This document shows positions 6,000 to 51,930 of a stretch of DNA of 64,000 nucleotides, in pieces. The notes below the pieces were generated by a model. The model was not told where the DNA came from, made no database searches, and saw only the letters and a list, made by a program, of their open reading frames with translations. Every line of letters starts with the position of its first letter. The first letter of the stretch is position 1. The stretch is from Tildeniella torsiva UHER 1998/13D (GTDB lineage Bacteria > Cyanobacteriota > Cyanobacteriia > Phormidesmidales > Phormidesmidaceae), in the NCBI GenBank assembly GCA_019358835.1, contig JAHHIH010000010.1:1-64000 (forward strand), in the 5' to 3' direction. Position numbers and translations under genes: made by a program.

Positions 6000-6527
6000 A
6001 TGGCAGATTTGGCGACGGATGCTTACACCAACAGCGGCGAGTTTTTGTACCCAGCTGAGGATGCTCAGCAGATTTTGAGCCTTGCGATCGCCCACCAAAC
6101 CGAGTCAGGCGAGCTTTCTCGCGCTCAGCTACTAGAAATTGCCGACGAACTAGGCATTTCCGCCGATACGATCGCCGCCGCCGAGCGCGAGTGGGATGTT
6201 AAAAAATACGAGCTGGCCGACCAGAAACTGTTCGACAGCCAGCGCAGGCAGCGGTTTCACCATGGCCTGTCTCAATTCGCCATATTTGGCGGGTTCTTGC
6301 TGCTGTTCTTGGTGCTGACGGGCGGCGCTGGCTTTTGGGGCGGACTGGTCAAGTTTTTGCTTTACCTTGGGGTTGCCCCCTGGGGCCTAAAGTTGAGTTG
6401 GGATGCTTGGCGCATCTACCGCCCCAATGAGTACGGCTACCGCAAAGAATTTCAGCGCTGGCGGCGCAAGCAGCAAATGAAGCGGGCCGTCGGCGGCGCT
6501 ATGCGGCGACTGCTGGGGCCGTCGTAA
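6000..6527 (+). CDS. 2TM domain-containing membrane protein
   Basis: This 175-residue protein has a soluble N-terminal part (about residues 15-60, YPAEDAQQILSLAIA and LEIADELGISADTI, a short helical SHOCT/tetratricopeptide-like region). A 2TM domain follows, with helices around 85-105 (FAIFGGFLLLFLVLTGG) and 112-130. The tail is very basic (RRKQQMKRAVGGAMRRLL). Such proteins are common in cyanobacteria and have no known role. AGGG 7 nt ahead of the ATG at 6000 decides the start; an upstream TTG at 5958 is in frame but lacks a site. It converges with hypB. Confidence 0.7.
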   Translation: MADLATDAYTNSGEFLYPAEDAQQILSLAIAHQTESGELSRAQLLEIADELGISADTIAAAEREWDVKKYELADQKLFDSQRRQRFHHGLSQFAIFGGFLLLFLVLTGGAGFWGGLVKFLLYLGVAPWGLKLSWDAWRIYRPNEYGYRKEFQRWRRKQQMKRAVGGAMRRLLGPS

Positions 6528-6558
6528 TTTTGGATTTTCGATTTTGGCTGAGGCAACG

Positions 6559-6581
6559 CTTGGCAGACCTGGTCTGCCAAG
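6559..6581. terminator. Perfect palindrome between convergent genes, possible bidirectional terminator
   Basis: CTTGGCAGACC (6559-6569) and its exact complement GGTCTGCCAAG (6571-6581) are separated by one base. Flanking AACG/CGTT can extend the stem imperfectly. It sits between the stops of the 2TM gene (plus) and hypB (minus). No T run follows on either strand, so termination is only suggested by position. Confidence 0.45.
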
Positions 6582-6614
6582 GGCGTTGGATAGTCTCTAG
6601 GCCTAGAGCCTGCT

Positions 6615-7316
6615 TTAGAGGCGGGCGTGGGTTTTGGCTGAGGTGGTGGATGATACGCGATCGCGCACCCACCCAAACCATTCTTCTAATCCTTCCCCAG
6701 TCTTAGTTGAAACTGCAATGATTGTGACGTGGGGGTTCATCTGCCGTACATTCGCCGCAATCTGCTCGATGCTCACGTCTAGATACGGAACCAGATCTAC
6801 CTTCGTAATCAGCAGGCAGTCGGCCTCCTGAAACATGATTGGGTATTTAAGGGGCTTGTCTTCCCCTTCAGTGACGCTCAGTAGTGCCACCTTGGCGTGT
6901 TCGCCCACCTCAAACTCGGCGGGGCAAACCAGGTTGCCCACGTTTTCCACCAGCACCAGGTCAAGGGAGTTGGGGTTGTAGCTATGCTCTAACGTGTGGA
7001 TGCCCCCCGCCACCATTTTGGCGTCGAGGTGGCACGATCGCCCCGTGTTGATCGCAATCACTGGCACGCCGTACTGGCGCAGTCGATCGGCATCCAGCTC
7101 CGTGGTCATGTCGCCTTCGATCACGGCGATCGCCAGATTCCCGTGCAGCCCTTCCAGTGTGCGCTCCAGCAGCGCCGTCTTCCCCGCCCCCGGACTGCTC
7201 ATGATGTTCATGCAGGTGATGCCCCAGGCGTCGAAATGGGCGCGATTGTGGTTAGCCCCGGCCTGATTGACGTGGAGCAGATCGATTCCTAAAGCAGCGT
7301 CGAAGGTTTGGTGCAT
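6615..7316 (-). CDS. hypB: HypB-type nickel-insertion GTPase, probably GhaB serving guanidine hydrolase
   Basis: This 233-residue SIMIBI-class GTPase has a P-loop SSPGAGKT at residues 40-47, the HypB stretch [20 protein letters not shown] and an [10 protein letters not shown] guanine-specificity motif. HypB proteins deliver nickel to metalloenzymes. The usual N-terminal histidine-rich nickel store is absent. No hydrogenase gene is in the window. Instead it lies on the same strand downstream of a guanidine-hydrolase-type gene and a HypA homologue, as in the known cyanobacterial gdmH-ghaA-ghaB arrangement. I therefore infer that it loads GdmH. A broken small gene lies between it and hypA. Confidence 0.88.
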
Positions 7317-7319
7317 GAT

Positions 7320-7640
7320 TTAATTAGTAGATTGCAAAACACTGAGTCGCGTTTGAATCGACTGCCACAGGTCGTAGAAGGCACTCCACTCGACGAAATC
7401 CATGCTGTCGCCCAGCTCTCCGGCATTGAACTGTTGGTAAAAGGTGTCTGAGGGAAGGCGGTACTGAGTTTCGTAGGCTTGGAGCTTGGCCTGAAGCTCT
7501 GAGGCTTGTTGCAGAGCCTAGCTACGCTCTAGCTCAATAATTTTGGCTAGGGAACGCTCCATGAGGTCGCTGTGATAGCCCCTTTGATAGAGGGTATTGA
7601 GCACCTGCAACTGATCTAAAGAGCGGCTTTGGGCGGGCAT
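7320..7640 (-). pseudogene. Small unknown gene interrupted by one in-frame TAG, inside the gdmH-hypAB cluster
   Basis: From the ATG at 7638-7640 to the TAA at 7320-7322 one frame reads 106 codons with a single interruption, TAG at 7518-7520 (codon 41). The protein sense continues smoothly across it: LAKIIELERS, stop, ALQQASELQAKL. The second half (YRLPSDTFYQQFNAGELGD, then MDFVEWSAFYDLWQ) reads like a real conserved small cyanobacterial protein, possibly antitoxin-like. I cannot name the family. One C-to-T change in a CAG codon would explain the stop. Its stop is 4 nt upstream of the hypB start, so it sits within the operon. Confidence 0.6.
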
Positions 7641-7687
7641 AGCTGGGGGTCTGTTGCTTTTATATTAAGTCCCAGTTTATCCCAGGC

Positions 7688-8062
7688 CTAAAGGAGAGGC
7701 ATTGGGCTAGTTGCCTCCGCGTACTCGACCCGATCGATCTTCAGCTCACGCCCTGAGCGAATATCGCCCATGGGTGACTGGCAGGTAGGGCAGGCATATT
7801 GCAGTCCTATCTCAGGTTGATACTGGCTCTGGCAGTCGTGGCAAAAAGCCACCAGCGGCGTTTCGCGAATCACCAGCTCAGCCCCGTCTAAAAAGGTGCC
7901 TTTGGTCTGTACCTCAAAGGCAAACTGTAGACCCACCGGCTCTACACAGGTAAACTTGCCCACGGTCAGGTGAACCTTCTCGATCGCAGGCTGTCCCGGC
8001 TGCGCTTCCCACCAGTCGCGCACGGTGAGAATCAGGGCCTTAGTCATGTCGGTTTCGTGCAT
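7688..8062 (-). CDS. hypA: HypA-type nickel chaperone, probably GhaA serving guanidine hydrolase
   Basis: This 124-residue HypA/HybF-family protein starts with Met-His-Glu, the conserved nickel site. It carries the structural zinc site as two CxxC pairs, Cys74/Cys77 and Cys91/Cys94. HypA hands nickel to HypB-dependent maturation. With no hydrogenase nearby, and with a GdmH-type enzyme 129 bp upstream on the same strand, the likely client is guanidine hydrolase. The same gene trio is established in Synechocystis (sll1077-sll1079). Expression should therefore depend on the guanidine-I riboswitch ahead of gdmH, unless an internal promoter exists in 8063-8190. Confidence 0.9.
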   Translation of the reverse strand: MHETDMTKALILTVRDWWEAQPGQPAIEKVHLTVGKFTCVEPVGLQFAFEVQTKGTFLDGAELVIRETPLVAFCHDCQSQYQPEIGLQYACPTCQSPMGDIRSGRELKIDRVEYAEATSPMPLL

Positions 8063-8090
8063 GGCAGGAAGCGGAGGAGGTAGGGAGCAG

Positions 8091-8187
8091 GAATAAGGGT
8101 GACGATGAGTTTTGAGTTCTTAGTTTTGAGTGTTGAGTTCTACTGATAGGGTTTTAACTCAAAATTCAAAACTCAAAATTCAAAACT
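8091..8187. repeat. AT-rich inverted/tandem repeat between gdmH and hypA
   Basis: The spacer contains repeated TTTTGAGTT/AACTCAAAA units: a left cluster near 8106-8133 and a right cluster near 8157-8187, where ACTCAAAATTCAAA occurs almost twice in tandem. The two clusters are partly complementary and could fold into a hairpin within the operon transcript. Similar AATTCAAAA repeats are common in cyanobacterial spacers. Confidence 0.45.
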
Positions 8188-8190
8188 TTC

Positions 8191-9387
8191 CTACTCCCAA
8201 GGCTCATCCACACTCATATTCGCCTCTTCGTGGATGTAGCTAGGCTTCTCGCGGCGGGGCAGCTGACCTGACTTGACCAGGTGGGCCATGGTGTCGCAGA
8301 TGACGCGGGTCGCCATTAGGGATGTCATATCGCTGACATCGTAGGGGGGGGACACCTCGACTACTTCAATGCCACAGACGGTGGTTTCTTGAATGATGCG
8401 CTTGAGCAGGTAGAGGGCTTCGCGGGGCAGCAAGCCACCGGGTTCGGGCCAGCCGGTGCCGGGCACAAAGCCCGCGTCGATGCAGTCGATGTCGAAGCTA
8501 ATCCAGACGCAGTCGGTGCCGTCGGTGGCGCGGGCGATCGCAAAGTCAGCGGCCGCATCTAACCCCATCTCAGTAATGTCGGTGACGGTGAGAATGTTGG
8601 TGGCCCGCTCGCGGCAGACCTTTACCCCCTGGCGGGGCACCTGCCAGCCGCCGATGCCCAGCTGCACGAGGTTCTTGGCCGGGGCGTTGGCCATGTTGGT
8701 GGCGTGGAACCAGGGGCAGGTGTGCATGCGCTCGTCAAGGTCGGTCTCCTGGGTGTCAACGTGGCGATCGAAGTGGATGATGCCGACTTTCTTGTCGCCC
8801 AGGTGGCGGCAAATGCCTCGCACCGTGGGGAAGCCAATGGAGTGGTCGCCCCCCAGCAAAATCGGGAATGCGCCGGAGGCAAATACATGGGCCACGCCCT
8901 TAGAAATCTGGTCGAAGGATTTTTCGTTGTTGGCGGGGATGGTGAACACATCGCCCACGTCGCAGAGGGTGATGCTTTCTCTCAGATCAATCCCCATCTC
9001 AAAGTTGTAGGGGGTGTAGAGGGCGGAGATGCGGCGAATGCCCTGGGGGCCAAAGCGGGTGCCGGGGCGATAGGTGGTGCCACTGTCGTGGGGAATGCCG
9101 ACGATCGCCACGTCAAACTCGCCCACCCGGCGCACATCTTCGATGTAGGGTGCTTTGAGGAAGGTGTTGATGCCGGCGTAGTGGGGTAGCTCGCCTCGGG
9201 AGAAGGTGGGAATGGTGCGATCGCGAATGCTTGCCGCCGCCTCTAGGCCATACTCCAGCCCCTGGGACACTTCCTGCTGCCAGCCCGTCATCGGCAGGCG
9301 GGCTTCCATCTCCAGGGCGCGCTGAGCCTCCGTCGAACTGCCGTTCGGACTTTGAAATACGGAATCGTTAGCGGGGTCGGTGGTCAT
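8191..9387 (-). CDS. gdmH: Nickel-dependent guanidine hydrolase (GdmH) of the ureohydrolase/agmatinase superfamily
   Basis: This is a 398-residue ureohydrolase-fold enzyme. The metal-site motifs are GGDHS (179-183), FDRHVD (206-211, where arginases and agmatinases usually have an alanine in place of the arginine) and SFDID (297-301), followed by PGTGWPEPGG. The long N-terminal extension and the stretch DLDERMHTCPWFHATN are characteristic of cyanobacterial GdmH. GdmH cleaves guanidine to ammonium and urea and needs nickel. The call is strongly supported by the guanidine-I riboswitch directly upstream and by the HypA/HypB pair downstream. Automatic annotation would probably say agmatinase (SpeB). 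The cytosolic products can enter nitrogen assimilation. Confidence 0.9.
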   Translation of the reverse strand: MTTDPANDSVFQSPNGSSTEAQRALEMEARLPMTGWQQEVSQGLEYGLEAAASIRDRTIPTFSRGELPHYAGINTFLKAPYIEDVRRVGEFDVAIVGIPHDSGTTYRPGTRFGPQGIRRISALYTPYNFEMGIDLRESITLCDVGDVFTIPANNEKSFDQISKGVAHVFASGAFPILLGGDHSIGFPTVRGICRHLGDKKVGIIHFDRHVDTQETDLDERMHTCPWFHATNMANAPAKNLVQLGIGGWQVPRQGVKVCRERATNILTVTDITEMGLDAAADFAIARATDGTDCVWISFDIDCIDAGFVPGTGWPEPGGLLPREALYLLKRIIQETTVCGIEVVEVSPPYDVSDMTSLMATRVICDTMAHLVKSGQLPRREKPSYIHEEANMSVDEPWE

Positions 9388-9446
9388 CGAAGAGCCTCAC
9401 AGGGTTGCACTGAGCCAAGTAAATCGCAGGTTTTGAGAAGTGAGCC

Positions 9447-9592
9447 AAAAAGCCCAGGAGATTTAAGAAGCTAAATCTCACCGCTTCTCATCTATCTCCC
9501 GGGCTTTTATCCCGCCGTGTAGTTGGCTATTACCAACTCGCCTCTCTCGGACCAGGCATTCAGCTTTGCAACCAAACCGGAACCCTAGAGGC
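9447..9592 (-). promoter_or_regulatory. Guanidine-I (ykkC) riboswitch with overlapping terminator
   Basis: Read on the minus strand, the aptamer starts with GCCUCU (9592-9587), continues CUAGGGUUCCGG and CUGGUCCGAGAG, and closes P1 with AGAGGC (9545-9540). The hallmark 3' half follows: ACGGCGGGAUAAAAGCCC, then GGGAGA (to 9494). The segment AGCCCGGGAGA (9505-9495) can instead pair with UCUCCUGGGCU (9461-9451), which is followed by a U run (9450-9447), forming an intrinsic terminator. Guanidine binding should stabilise the aptamer, prevent the terminator and switch the genes on. It lies between cobM and gdmH, about 60 nt ahead of the gdmH start. Confidence 0.95.
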
Positions 9593-9637
9593 TTAAATAT
9601 TTTGATGCCAACACTCTAAGCCCAGCCATCACTGAGG

Positions 9638-10516
9638 TCAAGACTCAAAGGTCACTGCATCTTGAGTCGCATCAGAGGGGGTGACGGATCGATCCTTAGG
9701 ACGGAACAGGTGAGTGTGGTCAGGGTTGTAGAGCTGCGACCTCACCTTTTGCCCCCGCAGCGCCGGGCTGATCACGTACAGCGTGGTGCGAATTAGGTCT
9801 TTTTCGCGGGTGGTTTTGGCCATCTCCGATAGGGGAACCACTAAGAGCTGCTCATCGGGCCAGCCGATGCGAAAGCAGATTGCCACCGGGGTATCCGGTT
9901 CATAATGCTTCAAGAGTTGGGCTTGGGATTCTTCCACATGGCGGGCGCTCAAGTACAGACACAAGCTGGTCTTGTGGGCCGCTAAGGAGGCTAAGTCCTC
10001 GGACTTGGGTACCTGGGTACGTCCGCTGATGCGGGTAAGAATGATCGACTGCACTAGACCCGGAATCGTCAGTTCGGCATTGAGCTTGGCCGCCGCTGCC
10101 TGGTAGGCGCTAATGCCCGGCACCACCTCAAAGGGCACCTCTGCCGCCGCCAAAGCCTGAATTTGTTCGTGAATGGCGCTGTAGAGGCTAGGATCGCCCG
10201 ATTGCAGCCGAATCACCGATTTCCCGGCCCGCACCCGATCTACCATCAGTGGCAAAATGCTCTCCAGCGTCATCGTGGCGGTGCCGATGCGCTCGGCTTC
10301 GGGGCGAGTCCAGGCCAAGATTTGCTGGGGTACCAGGGAGTTGGCGTAGAGAATCACATCCGCCTGGCTCAGCAGCCGCTGGGCTTTGACGGTCAATAGC
10401 TCTGGGTCGCCCGGCCCGGCCCCAACGATGTAAACCCCTGGCGCTAGGGCCGCCTCCCTAGTGGGAGCCTCGGCGGGAGAACCTTGAATATTAGAGGAGG
10501 TCACAGGGCTAGCCAT
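9638..10516 (-). CDS. cobM: Precorrin-4 / cobalt-precorrin-4 C11-methyltransferase
   Basis: This 292-residue SAM-dependent tetrapyrrole methylase begins after a short low-complexity leader. The motif VYIVGAGPGDPELLTVKA is at about 27-44, followed by the CobM-type stretches ILYANSLVP, RLQSGDPSLYSAI, EVVPGISAYQAAAA and LYLSARH. CobM methylates C11 of precorrin-4 in cobalamin biosynthesis in the cytosol. No other cob/cbi genes are in the window, as is usual for the scattered cyanobacterial pathway. It ends 46 bp before the guanidine riboswitch, so read-through into gdmH is possible. No cobalamin riboswitch was recognised upstream. Confidence 0.9.
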   Translation of the reverse strand: MASPVTSSNIQGSPAEAPTREAALAPGVYIVGAGPGDPELLTVKAQRLLSQADVILYANSLVPQQILAWTRPEAERIGTATMTLESILPLMVDRVRAGKSVIRLQSGDPSLYSAIHEQIQALAAAEVPFEVVPGISAYQAAAAKLNAELTIPGLVQSIILTRISGRTQVPKSEDLASLAAHKTSLCLYLSARHVEESQAQLLKHYEPDTPVAICFRIGWPDEQLLVVPLSEMAKTTREKDLIRTTLYVISPALRGQKVRSQLYNPDHTHLFRPKDRSVTPSDATQDAVTFES

Positions 10517-10648
10517 AGGGCAAAGGTCAACAATTCACACAGCCCCCAGATCATAGCCACTTTGTTTCAAGTATCCGTGAACCCTAGGTATTTCCCCGGA
10601 ATTTGGCCGCTGCCCTAGGAGATTGGAGCGGTAGATGCACCCTGATTC

Positions 10649-10685
10649 AGACCCCTGAGGATAGCTAACTCAGGGGTCTTTTTTT
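10649..10685 (+). terminator. Strong intrinsic terminator with no upstream gene
   Basis: AGACCCCTGAG (10649-10659) pairs exactly with CTCAGGGGTCT (10669-10679) across a 9-nt loop and is followed by eight T residues. It points along the plus strand, but the nearest upstream plus-strand sequence (10520-10648) has no coding gene. This suggests a short non-coding transcript ending here. Confidence 0.8.
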
Positions 10686-10748
10686 GCAACCAAGGCTATT
10701 TCGTTATGGCCGTAAAATCCTCGGGCTCAAAGCGTTGACTCGATAGAT

Positions 10749-10907
10749 TTGCTCCTTGCCCACAGCCAGGAGCAATGTTGGCAAAGACTTAAATATTTTT
10801 GCTTTGGGAATTGGATTGAAAGCGGTTTCTACGATAATGAGGCAGCTGCCAGAGCGCTTGAGCAGCGGTGCACCACCGCCCAACTCGCCCTGGGTGACTC
10901 ACTTTAG
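10749..10907 (+). other. Doubtful short reading frame or gene remnant
   Basis: A 52-codon frame starts with TTG and ends with TAG at 10905. Its translation contains HSQEQCWQRLKYFCFGNW and DNEAAARALEQRC, which looks protein-like, but there is no ATG, no ribosome site and no recognised family. It could be the end of a decayed gene. Confidence 0.2.
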
Positions 10908-51559: not shown

Positions 51560-51930
51560 AGAAACGCACCTCACAAACGACGGTGTGGCGCTAGAGGACG
51601 TTCCTGGGCGGGATGTTGGGCGGGTGAGGGCGGGTAAAATCGAACACTATGGAGCTATAGCTAGTGAGCATTAGCTTCATGCCAATACTTCACCGATCGT
51701 TCTAGATTTATCTCCAGAACGCCTATAGGCTCGTCGTTTCGGTACGTGACCTCAAGCAACGCTTTCCTCCGCTGGTATTAACCAGGTCAGGTTCTGAGGG
51801 TATGATCTCAGTCCGATTGCTCGGACACCCCTAGCTTGTTGGCATCATATCACTGGTTGATGACGCCGCTGCCAGACCATCGTTGCCTGAGTCTGTAAAG
51901 GCATAATAGAGATCAGTTAGAACTGGCGCT
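51560..51930. other. Leader region of the symporter and upstream promoter region
   Basis: This 371-bp stretch holds the TPP riboswitch (51753-51838) and about 190 nt of leader between it and the symporter start. No intrinsic terminator with a U run was seen in that leader, so control may act on translation. The part beyond 51840 should hold the promoters of the symporter and of the DUF3782-like gene. Confidence 0.45.
51753..51838 (-). promoter_or_regulatory. TPP (THI-box) riboswitch
   Basis: Read on the minus strand, CAAGC (51838-51834) opens P1, which closes with GCUUG (51757-51753). Between them are the conserved parts: AGGGGUGUCC, GGACUGAGAUCAUACCCU, GAACCUGACCUGGUUAAUACC and AGCGGAGGAAAG. 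These match the TPP aptamer consensus element by element, including the CUGAGA and ACCUGA cores. It lies 194 nt ahead of the symporter start and should repress it when thiamine pyrophosphate is plentiful. Confidence 0.95.

Follow-up and report, generated by a model that had tools for sequence, protein, structure and literature searches.

The window analysed here, a stretch of 64,000 nucleotides from the cyanobacterium Tildeniella torsiva UHER 1998/13D (assembly GCA_019358835.1, contig JAHHIH010000010.1, forward-strand positions 1 to 64,000), carries on its minus strand a three-gene cluster, gdmH-hypA-hypB, headed by a Guanidine-I (ykkC) riboswitch aptamer and an intrinsic terminator, with an interrupted TumA-like open reading frame (ORF) lodged between the second and third genes (Table 1). 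An earlier note on this DNA, made from its letters alone, had read the interval from 6615 to 9592 as a guanidine riboswitch controlling a nickel-dependent guanidine hydrolase and its two chaperones (gdmH-ghaA-ghaB), and the analyses below bear on that reading and on the wider set of genes to which the cluster belongs.

Table 1 Features of the guanidine locus in the window, with the basis of each assignment
Feature	Position	Strand	Basis and remarks
Predicted sigma-70 promoter, TTGACC-17-TAGAGT	9613-9641	-	promoter scan; -35 box includes the cobM stop codon
Guanidine-I (ykkC) riboswitch aptamer	9494-9599	-	RF00442, model 1-107, full length, 85.7 bits, E 6.8e-14
Intrinsic terminator	9447-9508	-	arm 1 9508-9494 (aptamer 3' strand); arm 2 9462-9448; U-run 9451-9447
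gdmH, Ni-dependent guanidine hydrolase, 398 amino acids	8191-9387	-	phmmer 829.8 bits to 7esr/7oi1; Arginase family
hypA-like nickel chaperone gene (ghaA), 124 amino acids	7688-8062	-	TIGR00100 119.9 bits, cut-off 88.1
Interrupted TumA-like antitoxin ORF	7320-7640	-	one in-frame stop; no TumE gene adjoining
hypB-like nickel-chaperone GTPase gene (ghaB), 233 amino acids	6615-7316	-	TIGR00073 309.2 bits, cut-off 121.2

The ykkC aptamer that had been proposed ahead of gdmH was recovered by an Rfam covariance search as a full-length match, with a score well clear of the curated gathering score of 63 bits; its presence within the interval of the earlier note therefore stands, but it extends 7 bases past the upper limit given there, to 9599. 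The same search of the whole window returned three RNA matches, one of which is this Guanidine-I aptamer, and the whole genome (5.84 Mb, with a listed completeness of 100%) contains two such aptamers, the window copy and one other. The predicted promoter ends 13 bases ahead of the aptamer. It is the single promoter-like site listed within 6500-10800, an interval for which shuffled sequences yield 2.0 +/- 1.6 such sites, so that a lone match is not above chance; of the 15 leaders of the genus that were aligned, 14 retain both boxes, locus L046 being the exception (the alignment comprises those of the 17 gdmH loci of the genus that have cobM upstream, the two others being left out).

The terminator consists of an outer stem of 15 pairs and an inner stem, followed by five U. 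The 76-nucleotide stretch that holds it folds at -34.8 kcal/mol, against a mean of -18.55 (standard deviation 3.33) for 200 dinucleotide shuffles, none of which did as well (z -4.88), and the leader forms an ungapped duplex of 14 base pairs (bp) where the best of 30 plain base shuffles reaches 9. A simple terminator scan did not list this structure, probably because that scan allows loops of 3-8 only. The aptamer helix P3 pairs 9513-9511 with 9503-9501, and the CCC at 9503-9501 sits within the first arm of the terminator; the overlap between the last aptamer strand and the first terminator strand, which had been placed at 9495-9505, is thus borne out. The terminator fold (-63.9 kcal/mol) and the P3-enforced fold (-53.4 kcal/mol) compete with each other, and the expression platform of the leader excludes the aptamer fold, as a transcriptional on-switch needs; that the switch turns expression on, rather than off, would follow from its riboswitch class.

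The leader was also compared across the family. Our family sample comprises 57 genomes, in which the aptamer search gave 77 Guanidine-I matches; 75 of these, from 45 of the genomes, were analysed (73 from other genomes and 2 from the genome of the window strain), the two left out being in G052, where the match abuts a contig end, and in G002, where it scores below the cut-off. Of the loci retained, 74 score over the Rfam cut-off and one, L110, was included below it. In all 75 the 3' strand of the aptamer is joined to downstream sequence by a duplex of 9-16 bp, and in 71 this duplex beats all 30 base shuffles of its own locus. A fixed threshold of 9 bp was dropped as uninformative, given that in 74 of the 75 loci at least one of the 30 shuffles also reaches 9 bp. 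Stem positions beyond the conserved core show several pair types, for example A-U 38, U-A 10, C-G 4 and G-C 3 of 74 at position 14, in a count that includes mismatches and leans towards pairing, since the register was picked by pairing, and that leaves out L055, whose best duplex lies far downstream.

With regard to the enzyme, the best solved match of the gdmH product is the PDB chain 7esr/7oi1, titled 'probable agmatinase 2', to which it is identical at 344 of 382 aligned residues (90%). We take this chain to be the GdmH of Synechocystis (Sll1077), an identification that is consistent with the literature. The second-best solved match, 9fek, bears the entry title 'putative agmatinase 2' and is probably the guanidinase of Nitrospira inopinata. 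The window protein carries the motifs GGDHS, DRHVD, SFDIDCID and GTGWP, whereas the other arginase-family protein of the genome (C41) reads DAHAD, SFDADGLD and NTGTP and is without DRHVD and GTGWP. Our use of DRHVD and GTGWP as marks of GdmH-type enzymes comes from this comparison and is not a published definition; across the 75 family loci, all 40 matches to the pattern FVPGTGxPExGG read GTGWP. In the cyanobacterial enzyme Trp305 is reported to block access to the active site (PMC11410670), and Trp313 of the window GdmH, which maps to position 307 of the 7esr/7oi1 chain, is probably the same residue, if that chain carries two extra residues. Sll1077 is reported to hydrolyse guanidine, to prefer it to agmatine, and to be raised in a guanidine-producing strain (PMC8390497); by analogy with Synechocystis, the ligand, nickel and substrate assignments would hold for the window operon as well.

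The two genes that follow encode products with the marks of nickel chaperones. HypA has an N-terminal MHE together with CHDC and CPTC, its two CxxC motifs; the MHE and CxxC motifs of HypA bind Ni and Zn. HypB matches the CobW/HypB family and carries SSPGAGKT, presumably its P-loop. The window hypA is the sole HypA match in the genome and the window hypB the one HypB over the model cut-off, a UreG-like GTPase at C38:80429 falling below it. A search of the whole genome for NiFe hydrogenase (PF00374) gave 0 matches, which agrees with the suggestion that HypA and HypB occur here without any hydrogenase; the chaperones thus have no hydrogenase to serve, and we rejected that role for them. The alpha subunit of a urease is encoded elsewhere in the genome, and so urea could be used further. 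Among the 42 gdmH loci of the family, 37 have both hypA and hypB behind gdmH.

In the window, hypA and hypB lie 371 bases apart. The TumA model scores 40.6 bits on the part of the intervening ORF after the stop, under its cut-off of 100; the uninterrupted TumA-like ORF of a relative likewise reaches 40 bits, the NCBIfam TumA and TumE models both remaining below their cut-offs. Of 16 loci of the genus, six hold uninterrupted TumA-like and TumE-like ORFs between hypA and hypB (L042, L044, L046, L052, L069 and L074; TumE is confirmed by PF20126 in one of them), one, the window, holds a remnant, and nine hold neither. Co-transcription through the gap would be expected, as discussed below.

The sequence elements of the leader, the competition between its folds, the kinship of GdmH to a tested guanidinase of Synechocystis and the genome context of HypA and HypB agree on guanidine degradation, as the earlier note had held, and make it highly probable that the cluster is a cyanobacterial guanidine hydrolase operon controlled by a riboswitch. 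Transcription would probably start at the promoter overlapping the end of cobM. When guanidine is absent, the nascent leader would form the terminator through the strand 9508-9494 and halt at the U-run; when guanidine is present, P3 of the aptamer would hold the shared strand and block the terminator, such that gdmH, hypA and hypB are transcribed. GdmH, which HypA and HypB would load with nickel, is predicted to split guanidine into urea and ammonium, and the urease encoded elsewhere would complete the release of nitrogen. For the ligand, the on-direction, the nickel and the substrate, this scheme draws on Synechocystis and on the riboswitch class.

Nothing counts directly against this interpretation, but several observations qualify it. 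The free-energy model favours the terminator over the P3-enforced fold by 10.5 kcal/mol, from which it follows that switching must depend on ligand binding and co-transcriptional timing. Across the family, the duplex fails to beat all shuffles of its own in 4 of the 75 loci, and a duplex combined with a U-run of at least 4 occurs in just 56 of them. In five of the 42 gdmH loci, one chaperone gene or both are missing from the stretch read (two lie at a contig end, one is a gdmH fragment, L038 has neither gene within 9 kb and L110 has hypA alone), and in the window itself a decayed antitoxin-like ORF parts hypA from hypB. The last of these suggests an alternative in which decay of a TumA-TumE cassette uncoupled hypB from the switch, leaving it to a promoter of its own. 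The 371-base gap with its interrupted ORF is what such a history would leave; however, 6500-10800 yielded neither a terminator-like site on the minus strand nor a second promoter-like site (by a weak scan, which also missed the leader terminator), and relatives that retain the cassette have the same gene order, so that we regard an uncoupled hypB as unlikely here.

Other explanations concern what the enzyme, the chaperones and the aptamer act upon. The enzyme could be an agmatinase, or act on some other guanidino compound, with the riboswitch only loosely tied to its substrate. It does belong to the Pfam Arginase family, and the expectation of an automatic agmatinase label is correct insofar as the NCBIfam agmatinase models match it, but they do so under their cut-offs (TIGR01230 only just, at 171.6 against 174.3 bits, and another at 204.8 against 302 bits). 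Given these scores and the differing motifs we rejected an agmatinase identity, and the 90% identity to a tested guanidinase, the DRHVD and GTGWP motifs, the latter in every family match to the pattern, and the substrate preference of Sll1077 make this alternative as a whole very improbable. HypA and HypB might instead serve urease, or another nickel enzyme, rather than GdmH, given that the genome has a urease and that L038 has a gdmH without neighbouring chaperone genes. Yet the separate UreG-like GTPase, the lack of a hydrogenase match in the genome, and the linkage of hypA and hypB to gdmH, seen in most family loci and in all 28 gdmH-containing loci of the glnT survey described below, leave very little room for it. 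That the aptamer is a ykkC-like variant sensing another ligand, such as phosphoribosyl pyrophosphate (PRPP) or guanosine tetraphosphate (ppGpp), is conceivable given that such relatives of the fold are reported to exist (PMC6031431), but the full-length RF00442 match lies well above the gathering score and the genes behind the aptamers of the family are largely guanidine genes, and we give this possibility almost no credence.

The guanidine hydrolase operon is one part of a larger regulon. The second Guanidine-I leader of the genome, at C32:86732-86873 (locus L006), precedes genes for GlnT, a substrate-binding protein, a permease, an ATPase and a Rieske oxygenase (L006 8733-14630), the middle three forming an SsuA-type ATP-binding cassette (ABC) importer. 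Of the 75 family aptamers, 42 have gdmH (one a fragment) as the first recognised gene behind them, 18 a sodium:solute symporter gene, 10 glnT and 2 the gene for the substrate-binding protein; three loci show none, two of these at contig ends. The symporter was identified in L068 (7424-8920, minus strand) by PF00474, at 120.1 bits over its whole length, and in the other 17 by a shared peptide; it is possibly a guanidine carrier of another kind. Seven loci of other genera of the family have a single operon, gdmH-hypA-glnT-hypB-importer, whereas in the genus of the window strain glnT, importer and Rieske genes stand behind an aptamer of their own in 10 of 20 genomes, and in one genome of that genus (G051) the gdmH, chaperone, importer and Rieske genes all lie together. 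In much of the genus the regulon therefore comprises two operons with separate aptamers, and its history is likely one operon split into two.

The GlnT of the second operon passes the model for type III glutamate--ammonia ligase (TIGR03105, 591.1 against 469.6 bits), and its nearest solved relatives are the glutamate-methylamine ligase 9qur (433 bits, the best) and the type III ligase 7cql. It keeps an Asp aligned with the DG of the GlnA of its own genome (LDG), where 9qur reads WG. We take the Asp of this DG to be an ammonium-site residue; ordinary ammonia capture thus stays possible for GlnT, and its reading as a plain methylamine ligase, suggested by the best match, was rejected. Judged from sequence, possible substrates are ammonia, methylamine or guanidine derivatives. 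All 57 family genomes give matches of some kind to GlnT, mostly more distant glutamine synthetases, and 32 full-length relatives have at least 74% identity. At 82% identity or more, 17 of 18 lie behind a Guanidine-I aptamer or within a gdmH operon (the other one is in G037), whereas none of the 14 at 74-80% is near a listed aptamer.

In a wider genome collection, 169 stretches encode a GlnT relative, and the counts that follow use the best 80 of these, each read for up to 10 kb on either side of glnT and on either strand. Aptamers were sought by Rfam in 14 of the 80 and by a text pattern in the other 66; the pattern missed two aptamers (L125 and L177) that Rfam detected. An aptamer is present in 45 (43 by the pattern, 2 by Rfam), several of the 35 negatives being short contigs. 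The genes gdmH, hypA and hypB occur together in 28 of the stretches, and 33 encode a Rieske relative, whatever its identity. Mapped on a tree, the aptamer label is clustered, with 13 changes against a shuffled mean of 26.6, and these 13 changes indicate that the aptamer was repeatedly gained or lost, or missed. Other cyanobacteria, too, have glnT close to Guanidine-I, and so does Marinobacter, where (L153) the gene lies on the opposite strand amid the genes of a riboswitch-linked operon of urea-carboxylase type. A few GlnT neighbours were identified in three further loci, namely 4 ORFs in an Arthrobacter, 4 in an Oleiphilus and 2 in an alphaproteobacterial metagenome-assembled genome (MAG); none was a guanidine gene, and an Rfam scan of these three loci gave no guanidine riboswitch. 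In the Arthrobacter (L155, 11272-12336) and the Oleiphilus (L149, 8783-9838) an alpha/beta hydrolase resembling PRK07581 adjoins glnT and might act on a gamma-glutamyl product. One record titled as a Bifidobacterium breve MAG (L184) holds a picocyanobacterial guanidine operon, with a GlnT that groups with that of Synechococcus sp. UW140; its bin was probably mislabelled or contaminated.

That glnT and Rieske genes are found repeatedly with Guanidine-I switches suggests a step in which guanidine or methylguanidine is used. Among the open-access papers listed by our searches, judged by titles and the beginnings of abstracts, none was evidently on a Guanidine-I-regulated glnT. A tentative proposal, which we hold to be possible but rather doubtful, is that GlnT and the Rieske oxygenase perform an undescribed guanidine step, for example that GlnT gamma-glutamylates guanidine itself or an amine derived from it, and that methylguanidine is N-demethylated by the Rieske enzyme to feed GdmH. 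If this were true, the cyanobacterial guanidine pathway would go beyond hydrolysis.

The two remaining RNA matches of the window lie outside the operon. A thiamine pyrophosphate (TPP) riboswitch occupies 51747-51842 on the minus strand (69.9 bits), and a match to NsiR1 lies at 10629-10685 on the plus strand (48.5 bits). To our knowledge, the family forms no heterocysts. Matches to NsiR1 exceed the cut-off in all 57 family genomes, with 1 to 12 in each, and NsiR1 is described as a heterocyst-specific RNA (PMC9045159).

The operon itself is the arrangement already published for Synechocystis sll1077-1079, extended here to one more cyanobacterium, with a likely 'agmatinase' label corrected; the greater value lies in the surrounding regulon, which in a single genus spans two operons, each with an aptamer. 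In Synechocystis sp. PCC 6803, sll1077-sll1082 form gdmH-ghaA-ghaB and an ABC importer under a Guanidine-I riboswitch (PMC8390497, PMC10094980), GhaA and GhaB being the names of Sll1078 and Sll1079 (PMC10094980). The window shares with it the aptamer, the enzyme (at the identity given above, if 7esr/7oi1 is Sll1077), HypA/HypB-like chaperones and their order; it differs in that the importer genes of its strain belong to the second riboswitch operon, alongside glnT and the Rieske gene, and in the interrupted tumA-like ORF between hypA and hypB. The picocyanobacterial cluster (Pro-eCAG_004 / Syn-eCAG_001) is similar in its ykkC, speB2 (gdmH), hypA, hypB, ABC importer and Rieske genes, so that a link of the Rieske gene to a ykkC guanidinase cluster is already on record; unlike here, it is one cluster, and the consulted part of its description names no glnT (PMC10119275). 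The Synechococcus/Cyanobium loci of our survey do carry glnT, but they were picked by glnT and thus give no measure of frequency. The guanidinase of Nitrospira inopinata is likewise a riboswitch-controlled GdmH-type enzyme, but with an amino acid-polyamine-organocation (APC)-type permease as its importer (PMC12186494). Finally, the methylguanidine operon of Vreelandella boliviensis resembles the second operon in adding an oxygenase under Guanidine-I control, with a riboswitch that is reported not to bind methylguanidine; it differs in employing a guanidine carboxylase and a 2-oxoglutarate dioxygenase plus lyase (PMC12508155), where the second operon of the window strain has a Rieske oxygenase.

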